Source: a virus
DNA length: 21,241 nt
Direction: 5' to 3' (one strand)
IMG/VR virus record: IMGVR_UViG_3300047482_000061
Location: 1 to 21,241 of that record
The notes below the pieces were generated by a model. It did not search any database. It was not told the DNA's origin and saw only the letters and a program-made list of their open reading frames with translations. A program made the position numbers and the translations under genes. Positions 1,197 to 21,219 of the stretch are shown here, one piece after another (the first letter of the stretch is position 1; every line of letters begins with the position of its first letter).

Positions 1197-1436
1197 ATGG
1201 AGATATCAATAGAACAAGAGTTTAGCATACACGCATTTGCTGCTCGCATAGAAAAGCTTAATGAAGAGGAGCTAAAAACACTATTAGTTAGTTTTTATAC
1301 TTATGACCTTTTGAAAGATAAAGCATACCAAGAGTTGCTAGCGTATAAGTGGGGGATAGAGGAACAGAAAGAGGAAGTTAATGAGAAAGAGATAGATGAT
1401 GGGTTAGACTCTGGGTGGGAATACCTATTATTTTGA
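1197..1436 (+). CDS. nblA: NblA-family phycobilisome degradation protein
   Basis: NblA is a small adaptor of cyanobacteria and some freshwater cyanophages. It binds phycobiliproteins and delivers phycobilisomes to Clp-type proteolysis. Residues 3-54 follow the family pattern closely. ISIEQEFSIHAFAARI matches the typical LSLEQQFSIRSFATQV start. A helix with LNEEELKTLLVSFY comes next, then AYQELLAYKWGI, which matches the family's ATYQELLKHQWGL. Host NblA proteins are about 55-65 aa. This one is 79 aa because of an acidic tail after residue 55 that ends in GWEYLLF. It lies 10 nt after the acidic-repeat gene and is followed by a strong terminator, so it is likely the last gene of its transcript. 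There is no strong Shine-Dalgarno upstream. The family call is confident by motif. Activity, and the role of the tail, are inferred. Confidence 0.88.
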   Translation: MEISIEQEFSIHAFAARIEKLNEEELKTLLVSFYTYDLLKDKAYQELLAYKWGIEEQKEEVNEKEIDDGLDSGWEYLLF

Positions 1437-1558: not shown

Positions 1559-4168
1559 ATGGAAATCAACTTTAAGCCAGTAGAGCTAGAGAGCAATATT
1601 AACCTAGAGGGTTTACCGGAATTTGAGTTGCCAACGGGTGGTATAGCAAAAGATGTTATTCTCGATGTGCTAATTAGTAAACAATACCAGAATCCTTTAA
1701 ACTCTTCTATTAGGGAGGCTTTTCAAAATGCGTTTGACGCTAACATAGAGTCTGGAAATGAGAACTTAGGTGTGCAGATAACGCTACCCTGTTGGACAGA
1801 CCCTACATTTTCAATCAGGGATTTTGGTAGGGGTATAGACCGGGAGCGGTTTGACAAAGTGTATAGAAGGATTGGCGAGTCAACAAAGAGGTCAGATAAT
1901 ACACAGTCAGGTGGTTTTGGTATAGGTAGGCTGTCAGCTTTAGCGGTATCAGACCAGGTTGCTATTACTTCTGTGGTAGATGGTGTAAAGTACACTCACG
2001 TATTGCTAAAAAGAGGAGACGGCAAGTACAGCTTTGTTACTGTAGATGAGAGTCCAACTGAGGAATTAAACGGGACAACAGTATCATACTCTGTAGCCGA
2101 GTACTTAAAGGGCTCTAACTACGCTGGAAAGGTTAAAGGTATTGAAGAGTTTATAAAAGAACTAACGTGGTGGTCAAAGCAACCTGTCTGGGTGAAAAAG
2201 TACATCCAAGCAGATGGAGGAGAAGGGGAAGGGCAAGAAACCTTTTCTTTACTAAACTCAAAGAAAGACCAAAACAAGGAAATTTTTGTTGACAGAGGTA
2301 ATTTCTTCTTCCCTGATGGGACGGCTTTTGAGTGGGAGTACAACTCTGATGACTTATTTGACTCAGTAGACTTTTATTTCATTGTAGGAAATTTAGCGTA
2401 CTGGGTGAACCCAGAAGATTTTAGGCCAACTAGAAGAGGAGGTAGCTATCTTACCTTAAAAAGCGAATATGCATTTTTTCTAAGTCATAGAGGACGCTTT
2501 GACCACTCGGCGTATCTTAATACAACAAGAAAGCCGTATTACGGGGATGTAACCGAGGGTAGAAAGCTAGCTATCTATACTAAACCTGGGGTACTAAAAT
2601 TAACTTCAAACAGGGAAAGGTTTCTTGATGATGAAGAATCTAGATCTCTTCAAAGAAAGTTATTAGATTATGCTTCTGAAGAATTTTTATTAAAAGCAAA
2701 AGCAAAGCTTGAAAATTCTAAGTCGTTAAAGGAGGCAATTCAAAACTTCTCAGTTTTTTACCCAGTAGAGAGTGAGACAGAAGGTTCAGCAACTTATAAA
2801 GGACATAAGCTGTCTCATTCGTGTTTAAGCTTCCGCTTTAACAGTGAAGAGGAGAAAAATTGGGTTATCTTCAAGCCGCTCAGTTCACTAAGTCCTGAAG
2901 ACTTGAGAGAGGTTGATAGAGACCTACAGGTTTTAGAACACTCTGGTTTAAAGACTAAAGAAGACTGTAAGGACAGCACTTGTCATACATTTAAAGGTGG
3001 AGAAGGGAGAGGGAGAATTTACAAGCAGATTCCTTTATACTACTTTCTAAAGTTTACTTGGGTAGTATGTAAAAAAGGTGTAAGACTAGATAAGATAAGG
3101 CAAAATCCTAGGGTACCAAAAGACAAAGTGCTGCTAGTTATTCAGCTACCTTTAGAGGGATGTACTACCCTAGCAGAGCAAGTAAGCAAACATTCTCTTT
3201 TGAAGTTAGCAGAACCACATGAGCTAGTTGTACTTGAGCCAGAAAAGAAGAAACCGAGTGCAAAAAAAGTTAGAGAGATTGACCCAGCTATTGAAATAAA
3301 ACAGCTAACAAAGCAGGGAAGAGTTAGAAAACTTGTACAAGGTTGGGAGAGGAGTAGAAAACGTTCTATCTATGAGATGACGCAGCCTTGCTACACAGAT
3401 CAAACTGGAGGGGTTTACGCTCTTACTACTACAGAAATGAATAACTTCTGTGCAGACTTTGTTCCTCCTAACCTGGCTGTTCAAGATATAAATTTTGTCC
3501 CTGATTCTGTAACAAGAATTTTAAGAAACGACCCAAATTGGATAAGCTTACAGGATTACTCTTGTAAGTATTTTAACGAGCTTATTACTAGATATGAAGA
3601 TGCTTTAGCACTGCTTGACTACAGAATTGACCTAAACTGGCTATCAGACGATGCAAAGCTTAGTAATCACCAGGCTGCAGAAGGTTTAGCTCAGATTCTA
3701 AGAGAAGCAGTAAGAATACATCCGGACTTTCCTGCCCTCTACTCTTTGATAGAACTTTTGTGCTCTCATCAAGAGTTTAGGTGGCTATCAAAAATATCTT
3801 CTCTAGAGGGAAACTCTTATATAAATGAGGAGAGTTCTGGAAGTCTTGAGAGAGTAGAGCACATAAAAAAGGTAAGGGTTAGGATAAACAACCAGAAAGG
3901 CTGGTCTGGCTGGGGTTTAGATAGTGAGTGGTATGTTAGTGATCTAATACCAGTCTTTTCTGCCTTGTATAAAGAATACCCAATGCTCTTATACTCTTTG
4001 GGGCAGTATAAATTGTGTGATCGTAGTAGACACCTCTCGCTTCCTAAATTTAAGGAGTTCCGCTATAGTTACAACGACGAAAAAGGACTCTCTATTTGGG
4101 GATCACATGATAAAATACTCGATGTACTGATTGACTACATTAAACTAATAAATAGTCAATCAGCATAA
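1559..4168 (+). CDS. rIIA: rIIA-like GHKL ATPase-domain protein
   Basis: The N-terminal domain of this 869-aa protein has the Bergerat ATP-binding motifs. The N-box is IREAFQNAFDA (E53, N57, D60), the G1 box is IRDFGRGID (D88, G90, G92) and the G2 box is GGFGIGRLSA (118-127). The pattern matches phage T4 rIIA (RELITNMIDA, CRDFGPGM, GGFGLGSKSP) better than Hsp90, MutL or gyrase. The remaining roughly 650 residues have no motif I recognise, and the protein is longer than T4 rIIA (about 725 aa). In T4, rIIA and rIIB are membrane-associated and counter lambda RexAB exclusion. The next gene is rIIB-like, which supports the call. Start: AAAGG about 8 nt before the ATG. It follows the shared element at 1501-1520. 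A weak hairpin lies just after its stop. Confidence 0.75.
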   Translation: MEINFKPVELESNINLEGLPEFELPTGGIAKDVILDVLISKQYQNPLNSSIREAFQNAFDANIESGNENLGVQITLPCWTDPTFSIRDFGRGIDRERFDKVYRRIGESTKRSDNTQSGGFGIGRLSALAVSDQVAITSVVDGVKYTHVLLKRGDGKYSFVTVDESPTEELNGTTVSYSVAEYLKGSNYAGKVKGIEEFIKELTWWSKQPVWVKKYIQADGGEGEGQETFSLLNSKKDQNKEIFVDRGNFFFPDGTAFEWEYNSDDLFDSVDFYFIVGNLAYWVNPEDFRPTRRGGSYLTLKSEYAFFLSHRGRFDHSAYLNTTRKPYYGDVTEGRKLAIYTKPGVLKLTSNRERFLDDEESRSLQRKLLDYASEEFLLKAKAKLENSKSLKEAIQNFSVFYPVESETEGSATYKGHKLSHSCLSFRFNSEEEKNWVIFKPLSSLSPEDLREVDRDLQVLEHSGLKTKEDCKDSTCHTFKGGEGRGRIYKQIPLYYFLKFTWVVCKKGVRLDKIRQNPRVPKDKVLLVIQLPLEGCTTLAEQVSKHSLLKLAEPHELVVLEPEKKKPSAKKVREIDPAIEIKQLTKQGRVRKLVQGWERSRKRSIYEMTQPCYTDQTGGVYALTTTEMNNFCADFVPPNLAVQDINFVPDSVTRILRNDPNWISLQDYSCKYFNELITRYEDALALLDYRIDLNWLSDDAKLSNHQAAEGLAQILREAVRIHPDFPALYSLIELLCSHQEFRWLSKISSLEGNSYINEESSGSLERVEHIKKVRVRINNQKGWSGWGLDSEWYVSDLIPVFSALYKEYPMLLYSLGQYKLCDRSRHLSLPKFKEFRYSYNDEKGLSIWGSHDKILDVLIDYIKLINSQSA

Positions 4169-4196
4169 AAGTGTAGACAGCTTGGCTGTGTACTTT
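4168..4196 (+). other. Imperfect hairpin between rIIA-like and rIIB-like genes
   Basis: AAAGTGTAGACAGC (4168-4181), loop TTG, then GCTGTGTACTTT can fold into a stem with small bulges. No T tract follows, so it is more likely an mRNA processing or attenuation structure than a terminator. Confidence 0.3.
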
Positions 4197-4228
4197 AGAG
4201 ACTAAAAGCTAATTAAGAGGAAAGGAAA

Positions 4229-5083
4229 ATGAGATACATTGCATCATCTAGGTTGATTTCTTACTATAACGACGAGACTAAGACTGTTTCTTTTCTATCA
4301 GCGGAGACAAACTCTTACTTCCAGATAGTAAGAGAGCACTTAAGGAAAAACCTTAACTGTAATGAGGTGACTGCAGCAGCAATAGAAGGGGATGTAGCTG
4401 CTTTAGTTAAGAACCTTAGGGACACAGACTTAGTTTATCAAGACGGTAAGTACTTTCTGTTTGAGGAAGAGATTCCGGAGGGGATAGCTAAGAAAGTTTT
4501 AGACTTGAGGCAGCAGGAGTTACCTTATCAACCTTTGCTAAACTACTGGAGAAAAGCAAAGCAGGGCGGGCTAGTTAGCCAGATAATGTGTGCTGAAATC
4601 GCTTCTTTAGTAGGTACCAGAGATATTCCCCTTACTTGGGACGGTGATTTAATTTTATACATGCGCTCCTCTTGGGTTAAGCCTAATGAAGAAACTCCCT
4701 GGGTTCAGAACCATAAGCCAGGTCAGAAAGTAAATCAAGAGTCAATCTGTGGCGGGTTTACATGGGTCTCTTCCACCTGCCCAGATGCAGGTTTAATGTT
4801 TGAAGTACAGGTAAACCCTGTACAATTAACGCCAGTCTATGAAAGAGGAGCTATGACTAATTTTAAAGCCACAGCAATCACCTTTATTGGACAGGTGAAC
4901 GGAAAGATGGCAGAGTCTGGCTTGTTTTTCCTGGACACTAAGACCAATACCCTTGGAGATAAAGTAGTCATTAGAGCTCCTTATAGCCCAGAGTCTTTTA
5001 GAGCATATCTAACAACTTTAGTACCTGGAGAAAATAAGCTACCACAGCAAGAAATGGTAAGCGTTAGACTAACTGGTTGTTAG
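4229..5083 (+). CDS. rIIB: Divergent rIIB-like protein
   Basis: This 284-aa product matches the architecture of T4 rIIB when aligned by eye. Residues 12-31 resemble the short strand/helix part (T4: ISITVDGVTYNAT). LPYQPLLNYW (98-107) followed by a helix corresponds to T4 FYFPFLENLL. LTWDGDLILYMRS (135-147) corresponds to TEDGYFYAYKVV. HKPGQKV (162-168) corresponds to NSPGKLV. ICGGFTWVSS (173-182) corresponds to CSAGLHVCSK. MFEVQVNPVQLTPV (190-203) corresponds to VKVKVHPRDVVSIP. It lacks the T4 N-terminal helix-turn-helix and has an extra C-terminal segment from about residue 225. It starts behind a good AGGAAAGGA Shine-Dalgarno, directly follows the rIIA-like gene, and ends at a terminator. 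In T4 the two act together. The identification rests on motif order plus synteny, since overall identity is low. Confidence 0.62.
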   Translation: MRYIASSRLISYYNDETKTVSFLSAETNSYFQIVREHLRKNLNCNEVTAAAIEGDVAALVKNLRDTDLVYQDGKYFLFEEEIPEGIAKKVLDLRQQELPYQPLLNYWRKAKQGGLVSQIMCAEIASLVGTRDIPLTWDGDLILYMRSSWVKPNEETPWVQNHKPGQKVNQESICGGFTWVSSTCPDAGLMFEVQVNPVQLTPVYERGAMTNFKATAITFIGQVNGKMAESGLFFLDTKTNTLGDKVVIRAPYSPESFRAYLTTLVPGENKLPQQEMVSVRLTGC

Positions 5084-5162: not shown

Positions 5163-5504
5163 ATGCCTGAGACAGAAAGAAAACTTTTCTCTTTTTCAAG
5201 GTCTATTGCAACTGAAGAAGAGCTAAGAGAAAAAGTAACCTCTACTTTGTGTTGCTTTTTAGGGTCAAGATTTCAAGAGGTCTTATCAGATTTAAAATTC
5301 TGCGAAGGGTTAACAACTGGCAGAATGAATGAAAGGATACTCCCATCCTTACTCAAAGACTTAATATTTAACAAGCTATGTGATGAACACGAGACATACC
5401 CAGTGTTCATAGAACTTTGCATAGAAAGCGCAGATTGGGAAAGAGTAGTAAAGCTTTTTGAACACTTAACTCTAGTTTCAAAAGTGGGGGTGTCAGATGA
5501 CTAA
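5163..5504 (+). CDS. Hypothetical helical protein, overlaps WD40-like gene
   Basis: This 113-aa product is not recognised. Predicted by eye, it is almost entirely alpha-helical and contains five cysteines (including a CC pair and an FIELCIES segment). It has no membrane segment and no catalytic motif. The start is well supported by AAGGAG about 9 nt upstream of the ATG. It ends inside the next gene: its stop TAA (5502-5504) overlaps the WD40-like ATG (5497) by 8 nt. Such overlap usually means translational coupling and often a shared complex, so a direct partnership with the WD40-like protein is a reasonable inference. The pair is bounded by a terminator on each side. Confidence 0.75.
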   Translation: MPETERKLFSFSRSIATEEELREKVTSTLCCFLGSRFQEVLSDLKFCEGLTTGRMNERILPSLLKDLIFNKLCDEHETYPVFIELCIESADWERVVKLFEHLTLVSKVGVSDD

Positions 5505-6060
5505 TCTGAAGACTTGGACTTCTGTAACAGTTGATGCAGAGGACTCTGCTCTTGACTTTGTAAAGAGTAGCCATGATACTAACCTTTTAGCTATGGTTTC
5601 TGGGGGAAGAGTTACTATCTGGGGTGAGGAAAGCTATAAGTTAGACAACTACGTTTCAAAGTGTAGTTGTATAGAGTTTTCAGATGACTCAAAGATTCTA
5701 GCAGCAGGATTTGAGGACGGCTCCATATTTGTATATAAGCTACCTTTACAGTTAAATGGTGAAATGACCGTTGAAAAAGTTGACCTTACTAGTCGTGATT
5801 TTTTCCTCCCTGGGGGGCTAAACGCAATTAGATGTTTAGCTTTTAACAAAGATAGTAGTCTGTTGGCTTATGCTAACGATTTTGGCTCAGTAGAAGTTGT
5901 GTCTGTTACTAACCAAAGCTCTGTGTACTTAGCTTTTGACTGTCACAGAAGTAAACCCCTATTTCTCTCTTTCTTAAGAGAGTTCAATAAAAGTGAAAAG
6001 AAAGAGTACCTTCTAAGCTGCTCTGAGAATGGGAAAATTATTCTACACTATCCTTACTAA
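5497..6060 (+). CDS. WD40-like mini beta-propeller protein
   Basis: The 187-aa product has about four WD40-type blade repeats. LLAMVSGGRVTIWG covers 30-43; IEFSDDSKILAAGFEDGSIF (59-78) leads into VYKL. LAFNKDSSLLAYANDFGSVE covers 114-133, and YLLSCSENGKIILHY (171-185) forms the last. The hydrophobic-D-S-x-hydrophobic-AxGxxDGxIxVY spacing is typical of the family. A closed propeller normally needs six to eight blades, so this protein would have to dimerise, pack against a partner, or be a shortened form. It overlaps the 113-aa gene by 8 nt and has a GTGGGGG Shine-Dalgarno inside that gene. WD40 domains are protein-binding scaffolds and are uncommon in phage operons of this kind. The target is unknown; a phage-encoded adaptor acting on a host complex is one possibility. 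Confidence 0.7.
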   Translation: MTNLKTWTSVTVDAEDSALDFVKSSHDTNLLAMVSGGRVTIWGEESYKLDNYVSKCSCIEFSDDSKILAAGFEDGSIFVYKLPLQLNGEMTVEKVDLTSRDFFLPGGLNAIRCLAFNKDSSLLAYANDFGSVEVVSVTNQSSVYLAFDCHRSKPLFLSFLREFNKSEKKEYLLSCSENGKIILHYPY

Positions 6061-11634: not shown

Positions 11635-14052
11635 CTAGTTTTGTCCAGTAATTATCGATATATTTGCCGTGACAACCTCTCCATTGCCTATGTGATCAGG
11701 ATATTCCTCAACATTTCCATAACTTGCTAGCAAGCTATCTCCTGTTCCAGATTCCCACTTTATTTGTTCTTGAAGAGTACTGAAGATTTCTCCTAGATTT
11801 TTAACGTAGAACAATATTAAATCTTGGGAAACAACACCTTTATTAAAGTCGAAACTATCAAAGGAAGATGAGAAAAACTCTCTATATTCTTGGAATATAT
11901 TTACAAGATTTATTTGCCTTGCCCCAGAGGAAATAAAGCTAAATATCTTTTCCCCCATCACTTCCAAGCCATCAGAAATCACCGCCGATATACCAGATGC
12001 CAAAAGATTTCCTTTAAGGAAAGAACCCCCAGCGTTTAAATCCACCAGCAACTTGTCAGTAGAATAATTGTAAACCTTGTTACTAGAGTCAAAAACAATT
12101 AACTCTAATAATTCATTAACCAACAAATCCACAGTTTCAAGAGCCAAAGACAGGGTGCTGGTGCTGTTGGTGCGGTAATTTCGTTGAGTAATGGTTCTAT
12201 CTAGCTTATTAGATACATAGGCAACATCTAAAGCGTCCACATATTGAATAATATCTGGATAATTCCCAGTGGCAAATCCCAGGGTGGTATTAAGGACATA
12301 ATTTGTGCTAGTTCTTTCAAAAACTTTCACGCTATTGTCCCCTACATTGGTTACATAAATGCGTTGACGGTTGTAAGCTATGGCTTTAGGTTGATTCAAT
12401 CCACTAAGGGTTTCCAGAACTGTATTGTTACTTGTACTAATGACCGTTACAGTGTCGTTAGCTTCATTAACCACAAACACCCTGCTGTCTCCAGCAACTA
12501 GAGCATTGGGTTTATCAGTTATTGGCAATGTTGCAATTAAAGATGCGGAACCTTGAGATACATTCCACACAGTTACTTTATCGTCATCAGGATGACTGGC
12601 ATAAAGAACAGAACCCACCAGCGCCAAATCACCACAGTTAAGATTATCTGTGATGATTCTGTAGGACTGTTGTAATGTGTTAGCATCTAAAGCTAAGATA
12701 TCCCCTTCATTAGACTGTCCCACAAACAAAACATTATCATCTTCTTTAAAACCAATGGCTGAAGCGTTAACGTCCACTTCTAATACAATAGCATTAAGTT
12801 CAATAGAAGCGACAATTAACTTTTCAGTCCCCACAAGATAAACGACTTCGTTACGACTGTATTCCTCTCGCAACGTAGGCTTAAAGTCCAAAGAATTAAT
12901 GTTATTAGGCGTGACCAAAAACCGCCTAATTATTATCTCGCAAGGTACTGTGCTGGACACATTTAAAAGCTTAGGAAATTGTTTAATTGTGCATTGCTTA
13001 TTATTAAACAAATCCTTGGTAAACATAGCAAACATCAATACCTCTTTCTCAGGAATTAATATCTGAGATTGAGAAGACATGGAAAAAAGCTTAATGGGGG
13101 CTGTGTCTACCCCCAGCTTAATAGCAGAAGTTCCGTATTTTGCCAATACCTCAGTGGTTAAGCCGTTAGATATGTTCTGGAATGTAATAGGCAACGACGT
13201 AGGTGACCGCTCGGCCACAATGTCAATATCACTGCTAGGTATTTTTGCAAAACAAATCCATCGGTGAGAACCACCTTGGGATGCATCCTTTGCATAGATA
13301 TAAAACTTCGTAGCGCTGGAGTCGTAGCTACCAAGTTCAATAGCAAACATAGCAACAAGGTCAAACTTCAGAACCAGTCCAGAGGAACCACTACCATCCA
13401 GGCGATCGCTGAAATAAGGGCTGAACCTATTAAACCTAAGCTCTTGGGTTTGACCTAGGTCATCCACATATCTGCGAACCAATCGAAAGTTATCGCCACT
13501 GCCATCTTCTACAACCTCTATATACCATCCAGAAGATTCAGAAAATATACCAGCCCGTTTTATTCCTGAACCTGTACTCATTTTCATTCCAAAGCTAATA
13601 AACAAGTTAGTTCCAGATGGACAATCAAATAGCTGCTTACTAGTAAGAATGATGTATTTCTGATTACTAATGGTGGAAGAAGGGATTATTAATTCAATGG
13701 CAGAATCATTGTAAGTTGCAAAACTATCAAAGCCACTATAGGAGGCGGACAACCCTTGTCCATAACCCCACAAACGCAGGTTTTCAGGAGTAGCAGACTC
13801 ATCAGCCGAGGAATAAGACAATATCCATCGGTTAAGGTCGATGCCGTAGGCATTGGTATCTGCAAATAAAAGTACTCGCTCATCTTGCACTGGAAAGCCA
13901 AACTGGCTAATTTCCAACACTTCAGGAGGAATAGGCTGAGATATCCTATCGACAGGAAATATTCTATCAGTAGCTAACACCACCGGATAGGACTGAGAAG
14001 ATAAAGCACTTCCCCTGGCTGCAATGTTCTCAGGAAAGTAAAGCTTTTTCAT
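11635..14052 (-). CDS. Tail fibre-like protein with YVTN-type beta-propeller
   Basis: The 805-aa product has three parts. Residues 45-80 contain FGFPVQDERVLLF and YGID..RW, also found in the upstream 636-aa protein, so the two share a virion-attachment or core domain. Residues about 100-400 are beta-rich. Residues about 400-675 form a run of roughly 40-residue repeats of the YVTN propeller type: KVTVWNVSQGS, RVFVVNEANDTVTVIS, RIYVTNVGDNSVKVFE, VAYVSNKLDRTI. The repeats would close into a six- or seven-bladed propeller. The C-terminal 120 residues are helical (SFDSFDFNKG... then EQIKWESGTG). YVTN propellers occur in surface-layer and adhesion proteins. In a fibre operon this one may bind a host surface structure. 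One HIP1 site lies in the gene (13402). The gap to the upstream gene is 2 nt. Confidence 0.72.
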   Translation of the reverse strand: MKKLYFPENIAARGSALSSQSYPVVLATDRIFPVDRISQPIPPEVLEISQFGFPVQDERVLLFADTNAYGIDLNRWILSYSSADESATPENLRLWGYGQGLSASYSGFDSFATYNDSAIELIIPSSTISNQKYIILTSKQLFDCPSGTNLFISFGMKMSTGSGIKRAGIFSESSGWYIEVVEDGSGDNFRLVRRYVDDLGQTQELRFNRFSPYFSDRLDGSGSSGLVLKFDLVAMFAIELGSYDSSATKFYIYAKDASQGGSHRWICFAKIPSSDIDIVAERSPTSLPITFQNISNGLTTEVLAKYGTSAIKLGVDTAPIKLFSMSSQSQILIPEKEVLMFAMFTKDLFNNKQCTIKQFPKLLNVSSTVPCEIIIRRFLVTPNNINSLDFKPTLREEYSRNEVVYLVGTEKLIVASIELNAIVLEVDVNASAIGFKEDDNVLFVGQSNEGDILALDANTLQQSYRIITDNLNCGDLALVGSVLYASHPDDDKVTVWNVSQGSASLIATLPITDKPNALVAGDSRVFVVNEANDTVTVISTSNNTVLETLSGLNQPKAIAYNRQRIYVTNVGDNSVKVFERTSTNYVLNTTLGFATGNYPDIIQYVDALDVAYVSNKLDRTITQRNYRTNSTSTLSLALETVDLLVNELLELIVFDSSNKVYNYSTDKLLVDLNAGGSFLKGNLLASGISAVISDGLEVMGEKIFSFISSGARQINLVNIFQEYREFFSSSFDSFDFNKGVVSQDLILFYVKNLGEIFSTLQEQIKWESGTGDSLLASYGNVEEYPDHIGNGEVVTANISIITGQN

Positions 14053-20984: not shown

Positions 20985-21013
20985 GAACTGCGGGTTTCTA
21001 AGTCCCTCAGTTC
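20985..21013 (-). repeat. Hairpin overlapping tnpB stop, possible IS right-end/omegaRNA structure
   Basis: GAACTG (20985-20990) pairs with CAGTTC (21008-21013), and GGG with CCC inside, separated by one mismatch and a 9-nt loop. The hairpin spans the TGA of the tnpB fragment (21007-21009). IS200/IS605 elements carry hairpin ends, and their guide RNA overlaps the tnpB 3' end, so this fits such an end. Confidence 0.5.
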
Positions 21014-21219
21014 TTTTTTAGCAAGACCTTAGCAGCATTATCTCTGTTCTGCAAATATTCACAAACACTACACTCATAAACTTTGATATCTAGAGTTTTC
21101 TTGTGTTGATGTCCACATTTGGGACAGATTTGAGAGTGTCTAACTTTCTTAGTTGAAACTTCCACTTCCTTATCAACCTTGAGGTTGATTTTGATCAGGT
21201 ATACAATCGTCGCAACGAG
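21007..21219 (-). pseudogene. tnpB: TnpB (IS200/IS605-type) C-terminal fragment
   Basis: TnpB is an RNA-guided nuclease encoded by IS200/IS605-family elements. The 70-codon open frame contains the four-cysteine zinc finger (CPKCGHQHKKTL, then YECSVC) and the hallmark NRDNAAKVLL just before the stop. An in-frame TAG (21220-21222) lies upstream, and no usable start is seen, so within this window the gene is broken, frameshifted or truncated. More of it may lie beyond the right edge. TnpB genes are common in cyanobacterial genomes and in large phages. The RuvC catalytic residues upstream cannot be checked here. Confidence 0.65.

Follow-up and report, generated by a model that had tools for sequence, protein, structure and literature searches.

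A short gene near the start of a virus record raises two questions: does it encode NblA, and what is the long tail that follows the NblA-like part of its product? The window, by which we mean the whole stretch of DNA analysed, comprises 21,241 bases of this record. The reading frame and its two parts are located as follows.

1197-1436, + strand: nblA open reading frame, ATG to TGA, 79 aa
1197-1355, + strand: NblA core, residues 1-53, two predicted helices, ending in W52-G53 (from Pfam PF04485, PDB 1ojh and pLDDT)
1356-1433, + strand: C-terminal tail, residues 54-79, 26 residues compared with 0-16 in other NblA sequences, net charge -8

The N-terminal 54 residues had been assigned to NblA in an earlier note on this DNA, and profile searches agreed with this assignment. 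Residues 2-48 of the product matched the Pfam family PF04485 (NblA) with an E value of 1e-9 and 39.1 bits, above the curated cut-off of 25, and phmmer aligned residues 1-56 to PDB entry 1ojh (Anabaena NblA, E 1.7e-10). Both sequence motifs quoted in the note are present in the product. The tail was matched by no family over the cut-off in Pfam or NCBIfam; below threshold, it was overlapped by DUF515 (E 0.079, 11.8 bits, cut-off 29) and phrog_2310 (E 0.05). With the strict NblA equivalog model NF045916 of NCBIfam the window protein scored 14.1 bits, below the cut-off of 100, and a PHROGs search of the protein returned no NblA match. At 79 aa the protein is longer than the typical length near 60 aa, which is not required for PF04485; the average given in PMC4103541 is 63 aa. 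Relatives were recovered by alignment-based searches. The window protein as lone query found no relative in viral_contigs or phages, and the Anabaena segment queried against phages found no NblA and a single chance-like match (E 3). A DNA search with positions 428-1520 against phages also gave no match. By its family match the protein is NblA and, as had been claimed, it is found in a virus record; a phycobilisome-bearing cyanobacterial host can soundly be inferred. Phage-borne NblA is already known, as described in PMC9602691, PMC4103541 and PMC5780444, and the copy in the window is a variant of NblA seen once.

By alignment, the core of the window protein is divergent. Its highest core identity to any gathered sequence is 42%. 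A 24-row alignment, consisting mostly of close host and viral relatives of the window NblA, contains 26 core columns that are conserved to at least 90%; the window agrees with 11 of them and differs at the other 15. Many of these differences are mild, in contrast to the changes Q36 to Y, M37 to D and K49 to A. Residues E6, Q7, F9, F14, L30, Y44, L48, W52 and G53 are invariant in this alignment and kept in the window, and in a more diverse alignment of 7 rows the only invariant columns are E6 and Q7. Alanine 49 occupies the position at which a lysine stands before W-G in 119 of the 122 other W-anchored sequences (the count leaves aside 14 more distinct sequences that have no W anchor). This lysine is K53 of Anabaena, with a role in antenna binding; its loss may weaken that binding.

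To compare the tail with those of other NblA proteins, frames were identified with one profile built from seven seeds, of which the window is one. Of the 271 frames obtained, 269 lie outside the window. Some loci stand for one and the same place, and deduplication left 136 distinct core-plus-tail pairs besides the window. The sources were host loci (the best 80 of 233 from genome_contigs, mostly titled Nostoc, Calothrix and kin), viral loci (43, plus 5 more, two of which repeat earlier ones), 386 genomes of the host phylum, records found through rIIA, and named phages; the S-SCSM1 protein lies outside this profile set. The set leans to close relatives, and its 60 hand-fetched host regions were, with one exception, chosen for tail-sized frames. 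For the 386 genomes, tails were judged among the matches listed, down to an E value of ~9e-19. Those with an open frame of at least 73 aa (counted by hand) were fetched, except for one in G122, in which the aligned stretch contains a stop; in frames shorter than 73 aa a tail of more than about 20 residues is impossible.

The tails of the 136 other sequences are 0-16 residues long, most commonly 8 (64 of 136), and carry net charges of -2 to +1. The next longest tail after that of the window, with 16 residues, belongs to an NblA at 3974-4207 of the viral-collection contig L253, which is also without the usual lysine; this contig may be a plasmid-like element, since a nearby ORF looks ParA-like by eye. 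In the window, 26 residues follow W52-G53, of which 10 are D or E and 2 are K, resulting in a net charge of -8. The earlier note had described about 25 extra residues ending in GWEYLLF, and the tail found is indeed of this size and longer than in all 136 other distinct sequences. Its description as mostly acidic is too strong: 38% of the residues are acidic and the last seven, GWEYLLF, contain one acidic residue. In the 386 host-phylum genomes no match with an E value up to 0.001 aligned beyond query residue 65. A literature search, outside of which most subscription papers lay, found no report of a tailed NblA form. In this comparison of sequences the tail is a real outlier, but one seen once.

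The genes around nblA, together with other features of the window, are the following.

428-1186, + strand: acidic-repeat gene, 252 aa (from the ORF list), stop 10 nt before the nblA start
1466-1500, + strand: intrinsic terminator 3' of nblA, 13-pair stem followed by a T run
1559-4168, + strand: rIIA-like gene (phrog_612, E 4e-37; Pfam HATPase_c_3, 1.5e-8)
4229-5083, + strand: rIIB-like gene (phrog_609, E 1.6e-5)
5497-6060, + strand: WD40-repeat protein, 187 aa (Pfam WD40, 1.2e-9), between the rIIB-like and lysozyme genes
11635-14052, - strand: large protein matching the virion structural protein phrog_1645, with a weak sub-threshold beta-propeller match inside
21007-21165, - strand: zinc-ribbon end resembling the TNB domain of Cas12f1/TnpB (Pfam, 6.3e-7)

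The setting that had been reported, with an acidic-repeat neighbour and rII-like genes downstream, was recovered in both respects. The rIIB-like protein is 33-34% identical to the product of the gene that follows rIIA in L327 and L328. Within the acidic-repeat gene, a perfect 9-bp tandem unit is repeated 13.7 times at 847-969 and encodes VEE repeats; the protein matched no Pfam or NCBIfam family up to an E value of 0.1. On either side of this array stands a copy of VTSVKLLS(A/T)EETTVEST, the two being nearly identical. The segment 1464-1502, containing the terminator, folds with -20.5 kcal/mol (z -5.9). Because of the gap of 10 nt between the two genes and the strong terminator after nblA, the acidic-repeat gene and nblA likely form one two-gene unit that is separate from the rIIA and rIIB-like genes. 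A second small hairpin (1435-1449, + strand) overlaps the end of the nblA stop codon and precedes the terminator. A promoter scan found 5 sites, compared with 4.1 expected, and therefore no promoter is claimed. The window contains no Rfam match over the gathering score and no tRNA. Since the zinc ribbon at 21007-21165 resembles the Cas12f1/TnpB TNB domain, it may belong to a transposon-related gene, or to what is left of one, at the window edge.

Is the tail part of a sound reading frame? A leucine or isoleucine is present at position 54 in 119 of 121 other W-anchored sequences, and an aspartate or glutamate at position 55 in 95 of 121; the window has I and E. Because both positions fit the family, the reading frame appears sound into the tail. 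In addition, five residues of the tail recur in a common host ending.

1401-1415, + strand: GLDSG within the tail, the same five residues as in the common host ending WGLDSG

Both observations bear on the explanation that a one-base insertion or deletion, viral or introduced by assembly, produced the tail. Another frame contains two stops about 8 residues past W-G, so that the protein would end near the usual length, 8 being the commonest. Such a close stop is not rare by chance, however, and with the family-like positions 54-55 as well as GLDSG lying in the present frame we consider this origin improbable.

Among the other tails, 39 of 136 start with LDSG or IDSG, and a shared run of at least 5 residues with any of 88 other endings was obtained in 28 of 10,000 tail shuffles; in DNA, the closest host sequence to the GLDSG codons agrees at 12 of 15 positions. 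Since the shared GLDSG was noticed after the fact, it is a hint, and no proof, that acidic residues were inserted in frame between W-G and an LDSG ending like that of hosts.

Composition bears on another explanation, namely that the usual stop was lost or that purine-rich DNA grew, as in the 9-bp repeat array of the neighbour, leaving a tail with no function. The purine content of the tail (0.69) is near that of the acidic-repeat gene (0.68) and above that of seven other coding stretches (0.54-0.61). Furthermore, one in four (25%) of the + strand positions of the window is followed by 26 open codons, and a frame of the length of the tail would therefore open easily by chance. That no comparable tail was present in the other NblA proteins examined also agrees with a neutral addition. 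However, similarity between the DNA of the tail and that of the acidic-repeat gene is not significant (70 of 500 shuffles score as high), and short phage genes as a rule stay compact. We regard a neutral tail as a serious possibility that falls somewhat short of being probable.

The structure of the protein was predicted with AlphaFold2 using 24 aligned sequences. The model contains helices at residues 5-20 and 23-51, with block mean pLDDT values of 83-95 over residues 1-50. Confidence is low from residue 59 on, with block means of 45 and 44 from residue 61, and the tail is predicted to be disordered. No PDB structure, and hence none with the helix-loop-helix fold of NblA, was retrieved for the model by Foldseek or a second aligner, possibly owing to the shortness of the chain. 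According to PMC4103541, NblA binds ClpC with a motif near its N terminus and phycobiliproteins with a motif near its C terminus; phycobilisome binding at the C terminus is also stated in PMC7760959. With the motifs placed in this way, the tail would be on the antenna side. An alternative action of NblA, loosening of the antenna rods by structural mimicry, is likewise described in PMC4103541.

These reports bear on the proposal of the earlier note that the tail might give the adaptor a different protease partner, which would be one other than ClpC-ClpP. The tail is new and predicted to be disordered, and nothing more speaks for this proposal. With the ClpC motif reported near the N terminus (PMC4103541) and the tail on the phycobiliprotein side, redirection is very improbable; in addition, S4, E6, Q7 and F9 of the N-terminal region are retained in the window protein, though L3, L5 and Q8 are changed, and no family over the cut-off was found for the tail. 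A related reading treats the two acidic genes as a cassette, in which the tail would re-target or regulate the adaptor, so that during infection the protease would receive either another subunit of the antenna or the adaptor protein. We think it improbable too.

The charge of the tail and the change from lysine to alanine might also alter antenna binding itself, in target or in strength. The tail lies next to the end for which phycobiliprotein binding is reported (PMC4103541 and PMC7760959), the lysine kept in almost all W-anchored proteins is lost, and the protein of L253 with the next longest tail is without it as well. Two sequences with both traits are weak evidence, however; the two other W-anchored sequences without the lysine (L196 and L222) have tails of at most 16 residues, and the surroundings of L253 are unrelated. 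Changed antenna binding is rather unlikely, though less so than a frame error. Both this explanation and the neutral tail concern the tail alone and overlap with the one that we prefer.

That preferred explanation, which we hold to be moderately probable, is an ordinary phage NblA adaptor with a tail that at most tunes antenna binding and is possibly an in-frame acidic insert. The phage-carried NblA would dimerise during infection, hold phycobiliproteins and recruit the host ClpC-ClpP protease. Dismantling of the antenna would release amino acids and lower the capture of excess light. The 26-residue tail would be a flexible acidic extension at the phycobiliprotein-binding end; it would leave the basic adaptor role as it is and would at most tune antenna binding, together with the change from lysine to alanine at position 49. 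The family match and the anatomy of the core come directly from the analysis, and the activity would follow from the family and from phage relatives: phage NblA causes phycobilisome loss in other systems, as reported in PMC9602691 and PMC5780444. NblA is a minimal protease adaptor of which phages carry natural variants, and a tailed form without the near-universal lysine would offer a natural test of the role of the C-terminal region. If the tail is inert, the window adds a further cyanophage to those that carry an auxiliary gene already described.

Among the viruses retrieved, the two nearest relatives are G413 (196.9 kb) and G414 (136.9 kb). They have in common with the window, in the same order, rIIA, rIIB, lysozyme, a phrog_2554 protein and three or two more genes. 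No NblA was detected with PF04485 in the whole of either record, and a search of both with the window protein, run without a positive control, was empty. The 18.0 and 19.5 kb read around rIIA contained no significant match to the acidic-repeat protein or NblA (best E values 0.25 and 5.7), nor did the stretches read contain one to the WD40-repeat protein. Since neither gene of the cassette was found near rIIA in these relatives, it may have been gained in the window virus, lost in the relatives or be located elsewhere, since both records may be fragments. With rIIA alone or rIIB alone as query, no relative was found in viral_contigs. An rIIA-based search led to 11 viral loci, and the records of 10 of them also carry NblA; these 10 proteins are 75-79% identical to Ma-LMM01 NblA and have a 9-residue tail.

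In a tree of 44 core sequences, the window fell within a starred set, 11 rows in size, containing Nostoc-type and Oscillatoria-type hosts and the viral loci L083, L084 and L255; the end branch of the window is very long, the alignment has 53 columns only and the bootstrap is unsettled. AU tests rejected no grouping tried (Ma-LMM01 type, p 0.36; PaV-LD, 0.20; L083 and L084, 0.47; L253, 0.56), and for L253 the held tree was slightly better than the free one. Because no grouping is rejected, the branch is long and the columns are few, the tree assigns no origin to the window nblA, which includes a common origin with the Ma-LMM01-type genes.

Among known systems, the structure 1ojh presumably represents NblA of Anabaena sp. 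PCC 7120. It is like the window protein in aligning over residues 1-56 and keeping W-G, but its chain has 65 residues, the identity is 36% and it has the lysine where the window has A49. The marine Synechococcus phage S-SCSM1 encodes an annotated phycobilisome degradation protein, phage-borne as in the window; this protein has 54 aa and is without a tail, and its record was unmatched by PF04485. No NblA match was found in S-TIM5, a phage reported to carry nblA, or in the Microcoleus phage My-WqHQDG. The Planktothrix phage PaV-LD also carries NblA (PF04485, E 1.2e-12) and, unlike the window, has no residues past the core by our tail measure. The Ma-LMM01 nblA (L134, 4899-5138, - strand) has its annotated start at a GTG that still lies within the end of nrdA, whereas an ATG further on suits the core. 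The MaMV-CH01 annotation has a shorter, hypothetical ORF at the corresponding place. Ma-LMM01 and its relatives (Fukuivirus) resemble the window in having a phage-borne NblA near rIIA, and Ma-LMM01, MaMV-DC and MaMV-CH01 all match PF04485 over the cut-off, as the window does. The Ma-LMM01 protein differs in its tail of 9 residues, compared with 26 in the window, and the identity is 21% in one alignment. The gene order differs as well: in Ma-LMM01, nblA is located ~2.5 kb upstream of rIIA and is followed first by two unknown genes, next by nrdB and then by rIIA, whereas in the window it comes after the acidic-repeat gene and directly before rIIA.
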